Of a DNA stretch of 64,000 bases, positions 7,659-16,134 are shown piece by piece. A program made the position numbers and the translations under genes. This stretch comes from Streptomyces sp. QL37 (GTDB lineage Bacteria; Actinomycetota; Actinomycetes; Streptomycetales; Streptomycetaceae), in contig NZ_PTJS01000001.1 of the NCBI RefSeq assembly GCF_002941025.1, positions 2,232,001-2,296,000 of the forward strand, read 5' to 3'. The notes beneath the pieces are model-generated. The model was not told the DNA's origin, searched no databases, and was given only the letters and a program-made list of their open reading frames with translations. The number at the start of each line of letters is the position of its first letter. Position 1 is the first letter of the stretch.

Positions 7659-8987
7659 TCATGCCGGAAGGGCTCCAGGGGCCGGAGCGCAGCAGCCACC
7701 GCCGCCGCTCCGCCCTTCGGCGGGTTCGTCGAAGAGTCCTGCGCCACCGCACACTCCGGTCTCGGGGAGGGCGAGTTCGACGCGGTCGGCGGACCCGGTG
7801 TCTCCGGCGATGGCGGCGGTGACGGAACGGACCTGCTCGTAACCGGTCAGGGCCAGGAAGGTCGGGGCGCGGCCGTAGGACTTCATGCCGACCAGGTAGA
7901 GGCCCTGTTCGGGGTGGGACAGCTCGCGGTGGCCGTGGGGGTAGACGGTGCCGCAGGAGTGCTGGTTGGGGTCGATGAGGGGGGCGAGCTCCACCGGTGC
8001 CTGGAGGCGCTCGTCCAGGGCGAGGCGGAGCTCGGACAGGAACGACAGGTCGGGGCGCAGTCCGGTCAGGGCGATGACCTCGTCCACCGGGTCGAGGCGC
8101 CGGCCGTCCTCACCGGCCAGGACCAGGCGGCCGTCATCGGCCGGCTCGATGACCGCGGTGCGGAAGCCGGTGACGGCGTCGGCGTACCCGTCGTCGACGG
8201 CTGCCTTGGCAGCGAGGCCCAGGGCGCCGCGGGCGGGGAGCTGGTCCGCGCTGCCGCCGCCGAAGGTGGAGCCGTTGATGCCGCGGCGCAGGATCCACAC
8301 CGAGTGCGTACCGGGTACGTCCTTCGCCACGTCGGCGAGACCGGCCAGGGCGGTGAACGCGGAGGCTCCGGAGCCGATGACGGCGGTGCGCCTTCCCGCG
8401 TACCGGGCGCGGACGGCGGGGTCGCGCAGGTCGGGGACGCGGTAGGAGATACGGGCGGAGGCGGCGCGTTCGCCGAGGGCGGGGAGTCCGTCGGCGCCGG
8501 CCGGGCCCGGGGTGGACCAGGTGCCGGACGCGTCGATCACGGCCCGGCCGAGGATTCGCTCCTCGGCGCCGTCGGCACGCGTGAGGCGGACGGTGAAGGG
8601 CTGCTGCTCCCGCTCGGCGTCGACGATCCGGTCGCGGCCGAGGCGGGAGACTCCGGTGACGGCGGTGCCGTAGCGGACCCTGTCCCCGAGGGCGTCGGCG
8701 AGCGGCTGGAGGTACTGCTCGGCCCAGTCGCGCCCCGTCGGGTAGGTGCTCGCGTCGGGCCTGGACCAGCCGGTGGGCGCCAGGAGCTTCTCTGCGGCCG
8801 GGTCGGTGAGCTCGCCCCAGGTGGAGAAGAGCCGCACGTGCGACCAGCCGCGCACCGCGGTGGCCGCGGTGGGTCCGGCCTCCAGCACCAGCGGTTCGAT
8901 GCCGCGCTCCACGAGGTGCGCGGCGGCTGCCAGCCCGGTGGGACCGGCGCCGATGACGACGACCGGCAGGTCTGCTGTGGTGGTCAT
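7659..8987 (-). CDS. arsO: FAD/NADPH-dependent monooxygenase of the arsenic locus (ArsO-like)
   Basis: A 442-residue cytoplasmic flavoprotein. A first Rossmann fold starts at residue 8 (VVVIGAGPTGLAAAAHL), and a second NADPH-type fold follows at AVIGSGASAFTALA. LTGLRPDLSFL and YLVGMKSYGRAPTFLALTGY are typical of ArsO/MSOX-like flavoproteins. The C-terminus carries a cysteine-rich tail (VCGGAGLF and GGGGCCAPAP) like the ArsO proteins of Streptomyces ars operons. I chose the ATG at 8987 because the fold starts directly after it; the frame is open to 9068. It is divergent from an arsR gene and next to ACR3. Its role in arsenic metabolism is inferred from context. A general thioredoxin-reductase-like or disulfide role is possible. 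Confidence 0.75.
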   Translation of the reverse strand: MTTTADLPVVVIGAGPTGLAAAAHLVERGIEPLVLEAGPTAATAVRGWSHVRLFSTWGELTDPAAEKLLAPTGWSRPDASTYPTGRDWAEQYLQPLADALGDRVRYGTAVTGVSRLGRDRIVDAEREQQPFTVRLTRADGAEERILGRAVIDASGTWSTPGPAGADGLPALGERAASARISYRVPDLRDPAVRARYAGRRTAVIGSGASAFTALAGLADVAKDVPGTHSVWILRRGINGSTFGGGSADQLPARGALGLAAKAAVDDGYADAVTGFRTAVIEPADDGRLVLAGEDGRRLDPVDEVIALTGLRPDLSFLSELRLALDERLQAPVELAPLIDPNQHSCGTVYPHGHRELSHPEQGLYLVGMKSYGRAPTFLALTGYEQVRSVTAAIAGDTGSADRVELALPETGVCGGAGLFDEPAEGRSGGGGCCAPAPGALPA

Positions 8988-9090
8988 GTCGGTGATGCCC
9001 TCCAGGACGGGCGACCGCTCCCGGCCGCTGTTTCGACGGTTGTCTATATGAAGCCTGGCACTTTGCATCGACGGGTGTCAACATAGACGC

Positions 9091-9456
9091 ATGTCGAATT
9101 CAGAGCGCGTGGAGCTGCCGGTCCTGGACGCGGGTGCCGCGGTGCCGTGCTGCCCGCCGATCACCGCGGGAGAGCTGTCCCAGGACGACGCGGAGCGGAT
9201 GGCCGTGATGTTCAAGGCACTGTCCGACCCGGTGCGGCTCCGCCTCTTCTCCAAGGTCGCCTCGCACCCCGGTGGCGAGGCGTGCGTGTGCGACATCTCC
9301 GACGTCGGCGTCTCCCAGCCGACGGTCTCCCACCACCTGAAGAAGCTGCGCGAGGCCGGCCTGCTGACCTCGGAGCGGCGTGGGACCTGGGTCTACTACC
9401 AGGTCGCCCCGTCCGTGGTGGCGGCCATGTCAGCCATGCTCGACCTGCGGGTCTGA
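9091..9456 (+). CDS. arsR: ArsR-family metalloregulator (first copy)
   Basis: A 121-residue winged-helix repressor with vicinal cysteines at VPCCPP (residues 20-21) and the metal-binding ACVCDI in the alpha3 region (EACVCDISDVGVSQ), then the recognition helix QPTVSHHLKKLREAGLL and wing RGTWVYYQ. As(III) binding to the cysteines would release DNA. The ATG at 9091 has no evident Shine-Dalgarno sequence. CAACAT at 9079-9084 would act as a -10 element placing the transcript start at the ATG, so a leaderless message is likely. It is divergent from arsO across 103 bp that holds GTCTAT (9042-9047) and ATAGAC (9083-9088), a possible operator. Confidence 0.9.
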   Translation: MSNSERVELPVLDAGAAVPCCPPITAGELSQDDAERMAVMFKALSDPVRLRLFSKVASHPGGEACVCDISDVGVSQPTVSHHLKKLREAGLLTSERRGTWVYYQVAPSVVAAMSAMLDLRV

Positions 9457-9470
9457 TCGCGGGTGGTGCG

Positions 9471-10592
9471 TCAGGCCTCCCCGCCCGGGGTGGTGAGGCC
9501 CGCGGAGGCGAACTTCCTCCGCCAGGCCAGCGCGACGTACACGAGTCCGATCAGGACGGGGACTTCGATGAGCGGGCCGACGACACCGGAGAGCGCCTGG
9601 CCGGAGGTGACGCCGAAGGTGGCGATGGCGACGGCGATGGCCAGCTCGAAGTTGTTGCCCGCCGCGGTGAACGCGAGCGTGGTGGTGCGGTCGTACGCGA
9701 GGCCGAGGCCCTTGCCGAGGAGGAAGGTCCCGAAGAACATGATCGCGAAGTAGGCCAGCAGGGGCAGCGCGATGCGTACGACGTCCATCGGCCGTGAGGT
9801 GATGGTCCCGCCTTGCAGGGCGAAGAGGATGACGATCGTGAACAGCAGCCCGTACAGCGCCCACGGGCCGATCTTCGGCAGGAACTTCGCCTCGTAGTCG
9901 GCGCGGCCCATCTTCCGCTCGCCGATGCGGCGCGTGAGGAAGCCGGCGAGCAGCGGGACACCGAGGAAGATGATGACGTTCAGCGCGATGTGCCAGACGG
10001 ACACGTCCAGGCCCTCGCCGTCACCGAGGTTCATCCAGCGGGGCAGCAGGTCGAGGTAGAACCAGCCCAGCAGGCCGAAGGCGAGCACCTGGAAGACCGA
10101 GTTCAGGGCCACGAGGACGGCTGCGGCTTCGCGGTCGCCGCAGGCGAGGTCGTTCCAGATGATGACCATGGCGATGCAGCGGGCGAGGCCGACGATGATC
10201 AGGCCGGTGCGGTACTCGGGCAGGTCGGGGAGGAAGATCCACGCCAGCGCGAACATCACCGCCGGTCCGACGATCCAGTTGATGACCAGGGAGGAGATGA
10301 GCAGCTTGCGGTCGCCGGTCACGCGGTCGAGCCGGTCGTAGCGGACCTTGGCGAGGACGGGGTACATCATGACCAGCAGGCCGAGTGCGATCGGCAGGGA
10401 GATCCCGCCGATCTCGATCCTCGCGAGCGCGTCGTTCATCCCCGGGACCAGCCGGCCCAGGCCGAGACCGACGGCCATGGCGAGCAGGATCCACACCGCG
10501 AGGTAGCGGTCGAGGGTGGAGAGCTTCTTGACGATCGAGTCGGCCCCTCCGCCGGCCGGAGCGGGGGAGGTGGTGGGCTCGGTGGAGGTCAC
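9471..10592 (-). CDS. acr3: ACR3-family arsenite efflux permease
   Basis: A 373-residue inner membrane protein with about ten hydrophobic segments. The conserved cysteine at residue 139 (GLARCIAMVIIWNDLACGD) and the C-terminal GPLIEVPVLIGLVY glutamate are the ACR3 residues needed for As(III)/H+ exchange; a second cysteine lies at 151. It exports arsenite produced by the arsenate reductase encoded nearby. The ATG overlaps the TGA of the upstream arsR by 4 bp, so translation is coupled and expression is under that repressor. It converges with the first arsR 14 bp away. Confidence 0.95.
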   Translation of the reverse strand: MTSTEPTTSPAPAGGGADSIVKKLSTLDRYLAVWILLAMAVGLGLGRLVPGMNDALARIEIGGISLPIALGLLVMMYPVLAKVRYDRLDRVTGDRKLLISSLVINWIVGPAVMFALAWIFLPDLPEYRTGLIIVGLARCIAMVIIWNDLACGDREAAAVLVALNSVFQVLAFGLLGWFYLDLLPRWMNLGDGEGLDVSVWHIALNVIIFLGVPLLAGFLTRRIGERKMGRADYEAKFLPKIGPWALYGLLFTIVILFALQGGTITSRPMDVVRIALPLLAYFAIMFFGTFLLGKGLGLAYDRTTTLAFTAAGNNFELAIAVAIATFGVTSGQALSGVVGPLIEVPVLIGLVYVALAWRRKFASAGLTTPGGEA

Positions 10593-10897
10593 GGGCAGGC
10601 CCTCTTGTTCTCGGACGCGGTACGGGCGGAGTCGGCCAGCGCGGCGAACTGCTCGGACAGCCCGGCCAGGACCTCGGGCTTGAGCTTGTAGTAGGTGAAG
10701 CGGCCGCAGGGCTCGGTCTCCACCACGCCTGCCTCGCGCAGGACCTTCATGTGGTTGGAGAGGTTGGTCTGCTTGGCTCCGGTCTCCTCGACCAGGTGGG
10801 TCGTGCAGAGCGTCTCGCGGGCCAGCAGGGTCACGATCCGGAGGCGGAGCGGATCACCCAGCACCCGGATGAGATCAGGATCCACTGAAGTCAGCAT
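10589..10897 (-). CDS. arsR: ArsR-family repressor of the acr3 operon (second copy)
   Basis: A 102-residue winged-helix protein: DPLRLRIVTLLARETLCTTHLVEETG, recognition helix TNLSNHMKVLREAGVV, and wing PCGRFTYYKL. Its cysteines differ from those of the first ArsR: one in TLCTTHL, one at EPCGR, and one in the C-terminal RACP. This suggests a different As(III) site type. It is the first gene of the arsR-acr3 operon with a 4-bp ATGA overlap. It is divergent from arsC across 111 bp with palindromic motifs. Confidence 0.9.
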   Translation of the reverse strand: MLTSVDPDLIRVLGDPLRLRIVTLLARETLCTTHLVEETGAKQTNLSNHMKVLREAGVVETEPCGRFTYYKLKPEVLAGLSEQFAALADSARTASENKRACP

Positions 10898-11008
10898 GCA
10901 CTGATACTGTCACATCACCCTTTGCTGATACCAGCAGGGGCTGAAGTCATCGGCGGCAGGTCAGGTCGTACGACAGGTCCCGCCTCACGACAAGAGAGAG
11001 CGATCACC
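10898..11008. promoter_or_regulatory. Divergent arsR-acr3 / arsC control region
   Basis: TCAGCATGCACTGA (10891-10904, TCAG/CTGA arms) and TGCTGATACCAGCA (10923-10936, a TGCTG-N4-CAGCA palindrome) lie about 32 bp apart. CTGATAC occurs at 10901 and again at 10925. These are the best operator candidates for ArsR control of both directions. Assignment is inference. Confidence 0.4.
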
Positions 11009-11431
11009 ATGGCCGACTCCTCGGGCAAGCCGTCCGTCCTGTTCGTCTGCGTCCACAACGCGGGCCGCTCCCAGATGGCGGCCGCCTGGCTGACCCATCT
11101 GGCCGGGGACCGCGTCGAGGTCCGCTCCGCCGGCTCGGACCCCGGCACCTCCGTCAACCCGGCGGCCGTCGCGGCGATGGCCGAGGCCGGCATCGACATC
11201 TCGGCCGAGATCCCGAAGGTCCTCACCGTGGACGCCGTACGCGAGTCGGACGTGTGCGTCACCATGGGCTGTGGCGACACCTGCCCCGTCTTCCCCGGCA
11301 AGCGCTACCTCGACTGGCGGCTGGAGGACCCGGCCGGCCAGGGCGTGGAAGCCGTACGGCCGATCCGCGACGAGATCAGGGCCCTGGTCGAGGGCCTGAT
11401 CGAGGAGATCGCCCCGGAGGCCACGGAGTGA
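11009..11431 (+). CDS. arsC: Thiol-dependent arsenate reductase ArsC (low-molecular-weight phosphatase fold)
   Basis: A 140-residue cytosolic enzyme reducing arsenate to arsenite for ACR3 export. The P-loop CVHNAGRSQ (Cys14, CX5R) opens the protein, and VTMGCGDTCPVFPGKRYLDW carries the two extra cysteines and the catalytic aspartate region. This is the pattern of the actinobacterial thioredoxin- or mycothiol-dependent ArsC family rather than the glutaredoxin type. I use the ATG at 11009 (MADSSGKPSVLFVC) with GAGAGAG upstream. It is divergent from arsR-acr3. A second, unrelated ArsC-fold protein lies at 16531. Confidence 0.93.
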   Translation: MADSSGKPSVLFVCVHNAGRSQMAAAWLTHLAGDRVEVRSAGSDPGTSVNPAAVAAMAEAGIDISAEIPKVLTVDAVRESDVCVTMGCGDTCPVFPGKRYLDWRLEDPAGQGVEAVRPIRDEIRALVEGLIEEIAPEATE

Positions 11432-11483: not shown

Positions 11484-13295
11484 TCAGTCCGCGAGGAGTT
11501 CGCGCAGTTCTGTCACCGCCTCGCGGAGGTGGTCGCCGAAGGCGTGCATCTGCCCGGCCACCGCCTGCGGGGTGCTCAGGTAGAGGTTGAAGCGGTCCGG
11601 CAGCAGGACGTAGGCGACGCCGATGCAGCGGCTGCTCGTGGACCCGAAGCCGAAGTACTGGATGTTCTCGGACGGGGCCGAGCTCGTGCTCAGGTAGTCG
11701 TCGCGCATGGTGAGCCAGCCCGGGGAGCGGTACAGCGCGGGCTGTTCGCGCACGCCGAGTTCGTCGCCGCGGCGGCGCTGGATCAGTTCGAGCTCCCAGA
11801 GGTGCTGCTCGGGGGCCTCGCCCGCCTGGCACTCCTTCGCCCGTGCCACGTGGGCTCCGGCGGCGGCCCGGAAGGCCGCACGGCGGGTGTCGCGGTCCGC
11901 CGTGGGGTCGTCCATCGCCGCGACGAAGGCGGGCATCTCGGGGGTGACCACGCGCATCGCCTCGGTGCGGCCGTGGCGGTACTGCCGGGTGGCGATCGAC
12001 TCGTACGTGGCTCCCAGGTGGCCCTTGGCCCGCTGGTGGGCCAGTTGGTACGCGACCTGGACGAAGGCGTCCGGGGACACTCCGAGCGCCTTGGCCGCCG
12101 TACTGCCGAAGTCCTCGAACGACACGGTGCGGGTGGCGGTGGCGTCTCCGTACGCGGCGAACTCCTCGGCCGCGGTGCGCACCCGCGCCCGCTGGGACGC
12201 GTCCAGTTCGAAGGTCAGGGGGCGTGGTGCCGGCTCGCCCTGGGGGCGCGCCCCGGACAGCCGGGAGTGCTCGTCCGGCGGGGTGCCGAGCAGGGCGTCG
12301 GTGAAGCTGAGGATGGTCGTCCCGTCCAGCTCGCAGTGCTCGACGTTGATGCCGGCCCGGCCGTCCGCGTAGACGACGAAGGAGACGGCCTTGTCGAACC
12401 AGCGGTTGCCCCGGTCGCCGTGGAGCAGTTCGTCGCAGGCGGCCTGGGTGTCATCGGGCGCGAAGTCCTCCAGGCAGACGCAGAAGAGTGCGGTCTCGAT
12501 GTCGTCCAGCGTGCGGGCGTTGCCGGGGTGGCCGTCGACGAGGGACGCCCGGGTGGCCGCCCACTCGGCGCGCGCCATGGTGGTGAGGTGGCCGGCCCGG
12601 TCCTCCTCGGGCGTGTGGACGTCGGCCTTGGTGACGGCGCGCAGGCCGGCCTCGATCTCGTCGAGGCTGTGCGGCACCCCGTCGGGGCCGAGCACGTCCA
12701 GCCGGAACATCGTGCCCCGGAAGAACACGACGATGTGCCGGGCCGTGGACGGCCCGGGCGCCTGCTCGCTGTACGGGGCACGCACCGTGTCCAGCGGCAC
12801 CCCGGGGATACGGGTCGTGGAGAAGAGGTACTTGTTCTGCACCATCGACTGGGGTACGCCGCGCTGCTCCACCGGCGCGATCAGCCCGTCGTCGAGCCGC
12901 CGCTTGTAGTGCAGTGCCCCCGCCACGAGCCCGGCCGCGCGATCGAGCTGACCCTGCCCGGTGTCCTGGAACAGGAAGAAGAAGTTGGCGTTGAGCGCGA
13001 TCCGGTCCCGGCGGCCGAGGTAGCGGTACGGCCAGAAGGTGTCGAGCCAGCTGTGCACACCCTCCGTGGCGTCGTACTCCTCCAGCGCCGCGTGCAGCGT
13101 CCGGCCGGGGCCGCCGGGCCGCAGGAAGGCGGCGACCTCGGCCTCCGTCGCGGCCCGCTCCTCGGCGGTCAGCAGTGGGGCGCACCAGGCGAGGAACCTC
13201 TCGCAGCTCGCCTCGAGCGTGGGCAGCGGCACGCGCGGGAGGCTTCCTTCACGGGCGAAGGTCGCGCCGGCTGCTGCTTCCTGACTGACGTTCAA
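11484..13295 (-). CDS. Choline/carnitine O-acyltransferase family protein
   Basis: A 603-residue enzyme of the carnitine/choline acyltransferase family, which moves acyl groups between CoA and a hydroxylated quaternary amine. The catalytic histidine is at residue 320 in GINVEHCELDGTT, matching the family H-x3-D-G motif. NKYLFSTTRIPGVPLDT and VVFFRGTMFRLDV are further family blocks, and the C-terminal STSS/YVLLPDRF region is typical. The TTG start at 13295 is preceded by a purine-rich AAGAGAG. It is the last gene of a three-gene minus-strand run with a methyltransferase and a 2OG-Fe(II) oxygenase, so its acceptor may be a hydroxylated, N-methylated amino acid made by its neighbours (inference). 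Confidence 0.88.
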   Translation of the reverse strand: MNVSQEAAAGATFAREGSLPRVPLPTLEASCERFLAWCAPLLTAEERAATEAEVAAFLRPGGPGRTLHAALEEYDATEGVHSWLDTFWPYRYLGRRDRIALNANFFFLFQDTGQGQLDRAAGLVAGALHYKRRLDDGLIAPVEQRGVPQSMVQNKYLFSTTRIPGVPLDTVRAPYSEQAPGPSTARHIVVFFRGTMFRLDVLGPDGVPHSLDEIEAGLRAVTKADVHTPEEDRAGHLTTMARAEWAATRASLVDGHPGNARTLDDIETALFCVCLEDFAPDDTQAACDELLHGDRGNRWFDKAVSFVVYADGRAGINVEHCELDGTTILSFTDALLGTPPDEHSRLSGARPQGEPAPRPLTFELDASQRARVRTAAEEFAAYGDATATRTVSFEDFGSTAAKALGVSPDAFVQVAYQLAHQRAKGHLGATYESIATRQYRHGRTEAMRVVTPEMPAFVAAMDDPTADRDTRRAAFRAAAGAHVARAKECQAGEAPEQHLWELELIQRRRGDELGVREQPALYRSPGWLTMRDDYLSTSSAPSENIQYFGFGSTSSRCIGVAYVLLPDRFNLYLSTPQAVAGQMHAFGDHLREAVTELRELLAD

Positions 13296-13330
13296 TGCGG
13301 CTCTCTTCTCGGTGAGTGGGGATGGTGGGT

Positions 13331-14215
13331 CTACCGGTGCTGCGGCCTGGAGAGATGGAGCTGGGCGTAGAGCCAGCCTTCCTCCTCCAGCCCGCTCGCG
13401 TCCACACCGGCGGCGGCGAGACCGTCCAGGACTCCCTGCCGCTCCTGCGGGCCCGCGAACCGCCGCTGCTTGAAGACCCCGTCGACCCGGGTGGTCCGGT
13501 AACCCAGCTCCTCCAGGGCCTTCTCGACGGGGTCGAAGGGGAACATCCGCAGCACGAAGTGGGCCATCCAGGGGAGGCGGCCGTCCTGGGCGGCGACGAC
13601 GCGGGTGAGGGTGCGCTCGGTGACGTAGCCGATGCAGCCCGTGGAGATCACCAGGTCCGTCCCGGCGAGCAGGTCGCGCTGCGCGGGGGTGGGGTCGTCC
13701 GCCTCCAGGTCGGCGTTGACGGTGTCGTCGAGGAAGCCGGCCTCCTGGGCGTAGGCCAGCGCCTCGGCGGACGCGTCCAGGCCGGTGAAGTGCAGGGCCC
13801 GCGCGGGGCTTCGGGAGCGGGAGAGGTCACGGTCGCGCTCCAGCAGTCCGGCGCGGGTCCCGGGGCCGCTGCCGTCGTAGCGCGCGTACAGCTCGTCCAT
13901 CGTGGCGTCGTACTTGAGCAGGGCGGCGTTGATCCCGTACGAGCAGCCGATGTCCAGCACACGGGGGACGGCGACCTGTTCCGTCTCCCGGTACTCCTTG
14001 ACGAGCTTGTCGAACCAGGGCTTGGCCAGTTGGGGCACGCGGTAGCCGAGCGGGCGGAGCACCTGGAAGTACGTGCGGGGGTCGGGTGCGGTGTAGATGT
14101 GGTCCAGCGAGACTTTTCCGGACGCGTCGAGACGCAAGGGTTTCTCCTCGGTGGGGCGCGTGGCAGTGCCTGAACCGTTCGCCGAGCCGCTGGGGCCTTT
14201 CGTCCGGACCGGCAT
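13331..14215 (-). CDS. Class I SAM-dependent methyltransferase
   Basis: A 294-residue protein. Motif I is VLDIGCSYG at residues 86-94; FTGLDASAEALAYAQEAG is the acidic motif II region and DLVISTGCIGYV the motif IV position. The conserved opening LDASGKVSLDHIYTAPDPRTYF is a family-specific N-terminal block. The start is uncertain: ATG 14215 gives an extra Ser/Gly-rich 25 residues, while a TTG near 14137 follows a better GAGGAGA box. It sits 17 bp downstream of the 2OG oxygenase gene and 35 bp upstream of the acyltransferase gene. The substrate is unknown; N-methylation of a hydroxylated amino acid would fit the operon (inference). Confidence 0.85.
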   Translation of the reverse strand: MPVRTKGPSGSANGSGTATRPTEEKPLRLDASGKVSLDHIYTAPDPRTYFQVLRPLGYRVPQLAKPWFDKLVKEYRETEQVAVPRVLDIGCSYGINAALLKYDATMDELYARYDGSGPGTRAGLLERDRDLSRSRSPARALHFTGLDASAEALAYAQEAGFLDDTVNADLEADDPTPAQRDLLAGTDLVISTGCIGYVTERTLTRVVAAQDGRLPWMAHFVLRMFPFDPVEKALEELGYRTTRVDGVFKQRRFAGPQERQGVLDGLAAAGVDASGLEEEGWLYAQLHLSRPQHR

Positions 14216-14232
14216 GGTCCGGACGAGGGGCC

Positions 14233-15096
14233 CTAGTCCAGGAGCTGGTCACCCCGTACGGCCCGGCCTTCCGCCGCCAGGTGTTCGGGAGTGACGCGGC
14301 CGAAGAGCTGCCGGGTGCGCGCCACGCTCCCGATGACGCCGGGGCGCTCGCTGTAGGCGAAGATCGCACTGTGGCGGGCGAGTCCGCCCCGGACCGGGCT
14401 GACCCGGTGCAGCGAGTAGCGGCCCTTGAACAGCTGGAGGTCGCCCGGGCGCAGGGGCAGTCGCTCCGGCGTGCCGCGGCCGTCCAGGACGTCCCGGACG
14501 TCGTCGAAGCGCTCGTCGTCGGCGGACCTGATGTTCGGGCAGTACTCGAACGATCCGCCCTCCTGGGCCTCCTGGGTCAGCATGCTCACCGTGTACTCGT
14601 TGGTGTCGAAGTGCCAGGGGTGCTCCATGCCCGGCCGTACGACGTTGAGCACCAGCCCGGAGAGCGGGTCGGCGAGCTCGTACAGGCAGGGCAGTCCGAA
14701 GCAGTCGGCGACGAAGCCCTGGAACGCCTCATGGGCGTAGAGCCGGCCGATGAGGGAGTCCCCCGGGATGTGGTCGCGGGCGACGAACGCGTTGCCCCGC
14801 TCGAAGGTGCGGCGCCCGGGGTGGTGTTCGGGCAGGTCCTCGTCCACGTCGATGTTGTAGACGTTGACCGTCTCGACGTCGAAGTACGCGTGCGGGGCGA
14901 GGGCGGCGCACTCCTGTCGCAGGACCTCCTGGAGCGGAGGGCGGACGAAGTCCGGCAGTACGGTGCAGCCGGCCTCGGCCAGTTCACGCCTCGCCCGCGC
15001 CACCACGGCGCGGGCCTGTGGGCTTCCCGGTTCCGACAAGGGGTAGTGGTCCGTGTCGACCACCTGGTCGAGCGTGATGGCTTGCAGAGTGCTCAT
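14233..15096 (-). CDS. 2-oxoglutarate/Fe(II)-dependent oxygenase, ArpA/HalD-like
   Basis: A 287-residue cytosolic enzyme. The iron facial triad is visible: H162 and D164 in PWHFDTNEY, and H230 in YSLHRVSPV. The arginine two residues after a nearby G (PVRGG) can bind 2-oxoglutarate. The family includes free-amino-acid halogenases that replace the aspartate with glycine. Here the aspartate is present, so hydroxylation is expected rather than halogenation. ATG 15096 has GAGAGGG upstream; the frame is open to 15129. It is the first gene of the operon with the methyltransferase and acyltransferase. The upstream gap has a TGTGAC-AC-GTCACA palindrome. Confidence 0.8.
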   Translation of the reverse strand: MSTLQAITLDQVVDTDHYPLSEPGSPQARAVVARARRELAEAGCTVLPDFVRPPLQEVLRQECAALAPHAYFDVETVNVYNIDVDEDLPEHHPGRRTFERGNAFVARDHIPGDSLIGRLYAHEAFQGFVADCFGLPCLYELADPLSGLVLNVVRPGMEHPWHFDTNEYTVSMLTQEAQEGGSFEYCPNIRSADDERFDDVRDVLDGRGTPERLPLRPGDLQLFKGRYSLHRVSPVRGGLARHSAIFAYSERPGVIGSVARTRQLFGRVTPEHLAAEGRAVRGDQLLD

Positions 15097-15250: not shown

Positions 15251-16057
15251 TCAGTCGAGGTCGATGACGGGACGCGCGTTGAAGTCGGCGAACATGTCCT
15301 CGCCCTCGGGCCCGTCGAGGAAGGCCGCGGTGTCCGGATTGCGGTTGGCGGTGGCGAGCGGCAGCCATTCGAGCAGCGAGCCGTAGCCCCCGCAGACCGC
15401 CTCTCCCCCGTCGCCGCCGTATACGGATCCGGGGTCCGAGGTCATCTCGGCGGTGTCGTAGACGTCGGAGGCGATGCGCAGCCCGAAGGCGTTCGGCGCG
15501 CGGTGCGGGCCGTCACCCTCGCCGTAGGGGGACACGTCCGCCGGGTAGCCGTCGCCCCAGCGGAAGAGCGTGCGGGCGCCGGCTCCGCAGGCGTGCTCCC
15601 ACTCGTCCGGGCGGGGCAGCCGAAGGCCCTCCCCGGCGAGCAGCCCGGGGACCAGCGCGGGGAGTTCGGGCAGTTTCCTGGGCTCGACCGCCATCAGCAC
15701 GGTGGGCAGGGTGACCGTGCGCGGCGGGGTCATCACCTGCGCGAGGCGCTCGCGCGGGTCGGTCTCGAAGCCGAAGCCGCCCGCGAGGCTCTCCTCGCGG
15801 TAGGAGACGAGCTGTTCGGGAAGCGGCTGCCAGGCGTCCACGTCGAAGCCGACGGCCACCTCACCGCCGGGCACCAGGGCGTACAGCTCCCCGGCCCGTT
15901 CGATCACGGCGCGGTGGGGACCGCCGCCGGGGAGCGGGGAGGTTTCCAGCCGGAGGAGCCGCCCGCCGGCCCGGCGGGCGGCCTCGTCCGCGCGGCGCGT
16001 GGCGGTGGCCGTGTCCAGGGCGCGCCAGCGGGCGAGGGTCAGGTCGGCGAGAGACAT
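15251..16057 (-). CDS. SUMF1/formylglycine-generating-enzyme-like protein
   Basis: A 268-residue protein. The middle contains LRLPRPDEWEHACGAGARTLFRWGD, closely resembling the RLPTEAEWEYA...YPWGD core of the SUMF1 family, which holds formylglycine-generating enzyme, EgtB and maturases such as PvdO. The end EAVCGGYGSLLEWLP resembles the usual GNVWEW block in degenerate form. The paired copper-binding cysteines of true formylglycine-generating enzyme are not obvious. The N-terminal 110 residues are not family-like to me. ATG 16057 was chosen as the first Met after a Pro-rich open stretch. It lies 154 bp upstream of the oxygenase operon on the same strand, so association is possible. Confidence 0.6.
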   Translation of the reverse strand: MSLADLTLARWRALDTATATRRADEAARRAGGRLLRLETSPLPGGGPHRAVIERAGELYALVPGGEVAVGFDVDAWQPLPEQLVSYREESLAGGFGFETDPRERLAQVMTPPRTVTLPTVLMAVEPRKLPELPALVPGLLAGEGLRLPRPDEWEHACGAGARTLFRWGDGYPADVSPYGEGDGPHRAPNAFGLRIASDVYDTAEMTSDPGSVYGGDGGEAVCGGYGSLLEWLPLATANRNPDTAAFLDGPEGEDMFADFNARPVIDLD

Positions 16058-16099
16058 GGCGTGCAGTCTCGCACCCCTCCCGCGCGGCGGCGGAACCGG

Positions 16100-16134
16100 C
16101 GCCTGTGCCCCCGGGCTCCCCGGGGGCACAGGCG
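16100..16134 (-). terminator. Terminator after the small gene at 16142
   Basis: A perfect 16-bp stem (16100-16115 with 16119-16134) with a 3-nt loop CTC, lying between two minus-strand genes. Confidence 0.85.

Follow-up and report, generated by a model that had tools for sequence, protein, structure and literature searches.

A stretch of 64,000 nucleotides (nt) of DNA from Streptomyces sp. QL37, the whole of which is called the window here, carries three adjacent genes for a Fe(II)/2-oxoglutarate (2OG) oxygenase (OX), a methyltransferase (MT) and a carnitine/choline-type O-acyltransferase (AC). Genome comparisons revealed that OX, MT and AC are a conserved unit (the cassette), which is widespread and co-inherited. 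We tentatively propose that the three enzymes form a pathway to an O-acylated, N-methylated hydroxy amino acid, which would have the layout of an acyl-carnitine with a different acceptor. The three genes are as follows.

14233..15096, minus strand: OX, Fe(II)/2OG oxygenase of the HalD/BesD family, hydroxylase type (H162-x-D164 ... H230, R241); ATG start, 287 amino acids
13331..14137, minus strand: MT, class I S-adenosylmethionine-dependent methyltransferase, assigned from orthologue alignment, model, structural matches and its place between OX and AC; likely TTG start at 14137
11484..13295, minus strand: AC, carnitine/choline-type O-acyltransferase with an altered acceptor site (R91, A446, Q497, F548) and catalytic H320; TTG start, 603 amino acids

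The initial annotation of this DNA described three tightly spaced minus-strand genes, and they are present at window positions 11484-15096, in the order OX-MT-AC from 15096 down. The spacing calculated from the coordinates is operonic, with gaps of 95 nt between OX and MT (17 nt with the ATG of MT) and 35 nt between MT and AC. The MT open reading frame extends to an ATG at 14215 (13331-14215, 294 amino acids from that ATG). MT orthologues align from about residue 25-33, and thus the TTG at 14137, which follows GAGGAG, is the likelier start. The window belongs to a Streptomyces-type genome, and its closest relatives are Streptomyces.

Conservation of the gene set

The initial annotation anticipated that conserved synteny would support the gene set and that homologues scattered over genomes would speak against it. 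Synteny was borne out, and scattering without co-occurrence did not appear. A scan of 245 genomes of the order gave 36 with an OX match, 32 of them orthologous, and the identical 32 genomes carry AC. A genus-level scan of 199 genomes gave 27 OX matches, of which 20 were full length with 69-100% identity; AC lies within the 1.5 kb flank in all 20, with MT between the two in 14 and missing in 6. We also kept 80 named AC loci from 268 confirmed loci in a contig scan. These come from Streptomyces, Wenjunlia, Actinomadura, Saccharopolyspora, Amycolatopsis, Nocardia, Frankia and a Pseudonocardiaceae metagenome-assembled genome; they are partly the same strains as the genome sets, so that the counts are not additive. 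OX is adjacent to AC in 79 of the 80, the exception being L213, whose contig begins at AC. MT lies between OX and AC in 67 and is missing from the cassette in 13, one of which is cut short at a contig end. Partial or interrupted genes were left out of the counts, as was the AC of L104, which has in-frame stops. This recurrence of the set across genera suggests more than chance.

At the level of the phylum, PF00755 was found in 5 of 296 genomes, as three cassettes, one fragment and one solitary protein (L147), which is 30% identical to AC and has no OX or MT within its 4.6 kb. Pairwise distances of OX, MT and AC correlate with each other (r 0.917, 0.900 and 0.907 over 73 loci, the pairs not being independent); MT frames of at least 345 amino acids (6/94) were left out of this analysis. 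Gene clustering at 45 loci, for which a crude gene finder was used, revealed no fourth gene common across genera, and the commonest other family occurs in 20 of the 45, the Actinomadura ones. We found no description of the OX-MT-AC set in the open-access literature, subscription papers being mostly outside the search. A decaying copy was observed in G253, where the AC frame of L104 is interrupted and another site holds pieces of the OX and AC ends.

The cassette is nearly universal in the genus of G457, in which AC occurs in 58, OX in 57 and MT in 58 of 59 genomes; G748 lacks all three. This genus is probably Nocardia, because the neighbourhood of metH, a kinase gene, a HAD gene, the cassette, hisE and hisG matches that of named Nocardia loci (L214, L225 and L228). 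A metabolite made at the level of the genus would fit such near-universality better than a strain-specific antibiotic would. Additional copies were observed in this group. G746 has a second, divergent cassette (L246:6951-10495; OX 59%, MT 46% and AC 57% identical), in which a single open frame covers MT and AC. A Nocardia-like genome carries a solitary AC paralogue (L247:8112-9905) with Glu at the position of the catalytic His and Arg at 497, and extra AC copies resembling it were matched in G745, G701 and G723.

OX is a hydroxylase-type member of the HalD/BesD family

OX matches the Pfam model HalD (PF23169) with 51.2 bits (cut-off 26) and has the BesD-type fold; the HalD match was found in 17 of 17 OX family members. 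It does not belong to the TauD family: the window OX gave no match to PF02668 at E <= 0.01, and matches were weak in 2 of 17 orthologues (best E 0.0036). PADLOC gave a generic 2OG match alone (E 4.8e-5). H162, D164 and H230, the residues named in the initial annotation, are present in 117 of 117 OX sequences (101 distinct among 116 loci). Its placing of OX among amino-acid hydroxylases and halogenases also holds, in that OX falls within the BesD/HalD lineage, for which structures have been solved with free lysine or ornithine as the ligand. Halogenases of this family have an HxG motif, in which Gly or Ala replaces the Asp that binds iron, whereas D164 is retained in every OX sequence and the HWG of HalD aligns with HFD of OX. 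This puts OX on the hydroxylase branch. Databases label OX as 'HalD/BesD family halogenase' or 'arpA protein'; D164 contradicts the halogenase label, and the literature search did not find the meaning of the second name, a first search giving mainly an unrelated ArpA-type regulator. The neighbourhoods of the closest non-cassette homologues (L102 and L103, 29-33% identity) gave no hint of substrate. Roles of individual BesD residues were also looked for in the literature on BesD, in which the residues of interest do not appear, and such roles do not enter the interpretation.

AC retains the catalytic site of carnitine acyltransferases and has a changed acceptor site

AC matches Pfam Carn_acyltransf (PF00755) with 531 bits over 574 of 574 positions (cut-off 22.3), and CPT2 and CrAT structures with about 205-212 bits. 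It is a full-length member of the family, with the catalytic His that the initial annotation identified as H320 present in 124 of 124 loci. These loci represent 106 distinct sequences, which we compared with human CrAT (CrAT numbering via an offset of 21); the roles of acceptor-site and acyl-site residues, including M564, are those known for CrAT and choline acetyltransferase. AC retains the equivalents of CrAT W102, Y107, H343, Y452, S454, T465, S552, S554 and F566 (F550 in AC), including the STS motif. F566 and S552 lie on the ammonium side of the carnitine site.

Four positions are changed in all 124 loci: A106 to R91, T467 to A446, R518 to Q497 and M564 to F548. The main cassettes of the Nocardia-like genus share all four changes (18 of 18). 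Arg518 of CrAT, which holds the carnitine carboxylate and defines a carnitine acyltransferase in the strict sense, is thus Gln throughout. Nor does AC correspond to choline acetyltransferase, which has Met, Val, Asn and Asn at CrAT positions 106, 465, 467 and 518; AC has Arg, Thr, Ala and Gln there in 124 of 124 loci. Because Arg518 is replaced by Gln and Ala106 by Arg in all loci, carnitine itself is probably not the acceptor. As judged from these residues, the acceptor would keep the cationic side, and an anionic group, if any, would be placed elsewhere. The carboxylate of a beta-hydroxy alpha-amino acid would sit on the nitrogen-bearing carbon, which would fit such a moved anion. The change of M564 to F548 favours a short acyl group. 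Lys419 and Lys423 of CrAT contact the 3'-phosphate of coenzyme A (CoA); the equivalent of Lys423 is kept in 124 of 124 loci, and that of Lys419 is lost.

MT and its relation to the cassette

Profile searches gave no family model that names MT. Methyltransf_12 and Methyltransf_25 matched with 23.5 and 21.6 bits, below their cut-offs of 30 and 27. The predicted model is confident (mean predicted local distance difference test, pLDDT, 89.8) and has a class I methyltransferase fold. Of 86 loci measured with the start choices made in this analysis, 40 have a 1-nt overlap of MT and AC, and in 82 the spacing is -4 to 120 nt. The two lie in one stop-free open frame in Streptomyces specialis, in Frankia L199 and in the second G746 cassette, with an internal AC start possible.

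The cassette lacks MT in 15 of 48 Streptomyces cassette genomes. All 15 have an MT elsewhere (39-46% identity), versus 2 of the 33 with a cassette MT. Among the 32 order-level cassette genomes, an off-cassette MT occurred in 11/11 MT-less versus 1/21 MT-bearing cassette genomes (p 9.3e-8), and the 11/11 also exceeded the 33/213 cassette-free genomes with any MT match (p 5.5e-9). A forward test on 16 further genomes gave 4/4 versus 1/12. MT is probably functional in the pathway, and the evidence that an off-cassette MT replaces a missing one is suggestive. We also observed an MT with 62% identity in G399, a genome without OX or AC, beside a PRK-family kinase gene (L135:8214-9035).

Proposed pathway and alternatives

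We infer the following order of steps. First, OX would hydroxylate a small free amino acid at an unactivated carbon; by analogy with the structural relatives of OX, a basic amino acid is the most likely substrate. The hydroxylated product would next be methylated by MT, with nitrogen as the most likely target. Finally, AC would transfer an acyl group, probably a short one, from acyl-CoA to the newly formed hydroxyl to give an ester. The initial annotation had suggested a route to acylated betaines, and this chemistry is a reasonable reading: the HxD hydroxylase motif of OX and the full-length AC with its catalytic His are consistent with it, and the replacement of the carnitine-carboxylate Arg518 throughout the family counts against it. 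A bolder version is that actinomycetes, including almost all species of the probable Nocardia genus, make a counterpart of acyl-carnitine, an acyl-carrier or acyl-betaine obtained by hydroxylating and N-methylating a free amino acid and acylating it with a dedicated acyltransferase with a moved carboxylate clamp; we consider this rather unlikely.

Several observations weigh against the proposed pathway. OX is about 15-19% identical to its solved relatives and was modelled with moderate confidence (pLDDT 75, low beyond residue 257), so that carry-over of their substrates to OX is weak. G741 of the Nocardia-like genus has MT and AC but no OX. The structural matches of MT are class I methyltransferases among which C-, N-, O- and S-types are tied, and thus they assign no N-methylation. 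The OX tree requires six MT changes, of which well-supported branches force only one when phylogeny is controlled for. Eight of the 11 off-cassette MTs are at one conserved locus, beside putative xanthine dehydrogenase genes, and the same locus is found in MT-bearing G284 and in cassette-free G280, G346 and G407; the off-cassette pattern could reflect relatedness. In AC, the equivalent of CrAT K419 is lost (S or A in 113/124 loci, T, Q or G in the others), and two cassette paralogues, one of them L247, carry Arg at 497.

It is possible, if somewhat unlikely, that the same pathway operates with MT methylating the carboxylate, the hydroxyl or a carbon, giving an O-acylated amino-acid ester or a C-methyl amino acid. 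Loss of R518 would fit an acceptor with a masked or relocated carboxylate. But the residues of the ammonium side, F566 and S552, are kept, and the new invariant Arg in AC suggests that an anion is still bound; the ranking among C-, N- and O-methyltransferases, being tied, carries no weight.

It is less probable that AC is an N-acyltransferase or is fed by a carrier protein, with MT as an accessory step that is dispensable in many strains. The 13 MT-less cassettes among the 80 named loci and the loss of K419 across the family agree with this. In fungi, carnitine-acyltransferase domains occur fused to polyketide synthases and carry out release onto other acceptors, which also counts in its favour. 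However, some MT of the family is present in 48 of 48 cassette Streptomyces genomes versus 33 of 213 cassette-free ones, and no polyketide synthase, nonribosomal peptide synthetase or carrier protein was conserved at the 45 clustered loci with the crude gene finder.

Histidine, or a betaine derived from it, seems improbable as the substrate of the cassette. In the Nocardia-like genus the cassette immediately precedes the co-oriented genes hisE and hisG; hisE (PF01503) and hisG (PF01634) follow AC in most regions read, often with an AC-hisE gap of 42-136 nt. But metH, the kinase gene and the HAD gene flank the other side likewise, which suggests that the site may be a fixed insertion point, and the cassette is not beside his genes in the clustered Streptomyces and Actinomadura loci. 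The last alternative, an ordinary carnitine or choline acyltransferase with unrelated neighbours, agrees with the typical fold and catalytic residues and with public annotation (choline/carnitine O-acyltransferase or carnitine O-acetyltransferase, among the 120 candidates listed of 7993 scored), but it is hardly credible, since AC never occurs without OX among the 245 genomes of the order (32/32) and R518 is replaced in 124/124 loci while the solitary actinobacterial homologue L147, which has no OX, retains the Arg.

Flanking genes

Arsenic genes adjoin the operon in the window (7659-11431): a weakly ArsO-like FAD oxidoreductase, an ArsR regulator, an ACR3 arsenite exporter (440 bits) and an ArsC-like low-molecular-weight phosphatase. 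They were rejected as pathway partners, as there is no arsenic set among the gene clusters common to other cassettes; a small ArsC-like protein (c13, named from sequence alone) does recur among those clusters. The open reading frame upstream of the operon (15251-16129) has a weak FGE-sulfatase-like match (E 0.017) and is not among the clusters common to the compared loci. In many MT-less Streptomyces cassettes, genes for a large FadH-like NADH:flavin oxidoreductase and a PadR regulator lie divergently upstream of OX (L118:10566-12692 and L112:13121-13705). As general partners these were also rejected, because they are a subgroup feature missing from the MT-bearing cassettes read.

Significance and comparison with known systems

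If the proposed pathway is correct, many actinomycetes make a metabolite that has been concealed by the annotation of AC as a choline/carnitine O-acyltransferase and that is nearly universal in one genus, whose members are soil bacteria and opportunistic pathogens. Carnitine-type chemistry would then extend to bacterial specialised or core metabolism. It would also offer a defined two-substrate enzyme test, with a BesD-fold hydroxylase and an altered carnitine acyltransferase, and a new free-amino-acid hydroxylase for biocatalysis.

OX shares the fold of the free-amino-acid halogenases BesD, HalD, HalB and HalA and of the BesD-like lysine hydroxylase (PDB 6nie, 7u6h, 7u6j, 9oes, 7jsd). It differs from them in its low identity (about 14-19%), in D164, which rules out a halide site, and in being always paired with an acyltransferase, a partner found for none of the solved members, although no search aimed at it was made. 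AC shares with CrAT, CPT2, COT and choline acetyltransferase (PF00755) the full-length domain, the catalytic His, the STS motif and the equivalents of Y452, T465 and F566. In contrast to that group, it has Q497 (R518), R91 (A106), A446 (T467) and F548 (M564), has lost the K419 equivalent, and is a bacterial protein whose operon also encodes an oxygenase and a methyltransferase. In carnitine biosynthesis, the trimethyllysine and gamma-butyrobetaine dioxygenases belong to the TauD family. The logic shared with that pathway is 2OG-dependent hydroxylation of a methylated amino acid followed by O-acylation by a carnitine acyltransferase, whereas OX belongs to the HalD and not the TauD family, MT and AC are in the same operon as OX, and AC is without the carnitine carboxylate clamp.

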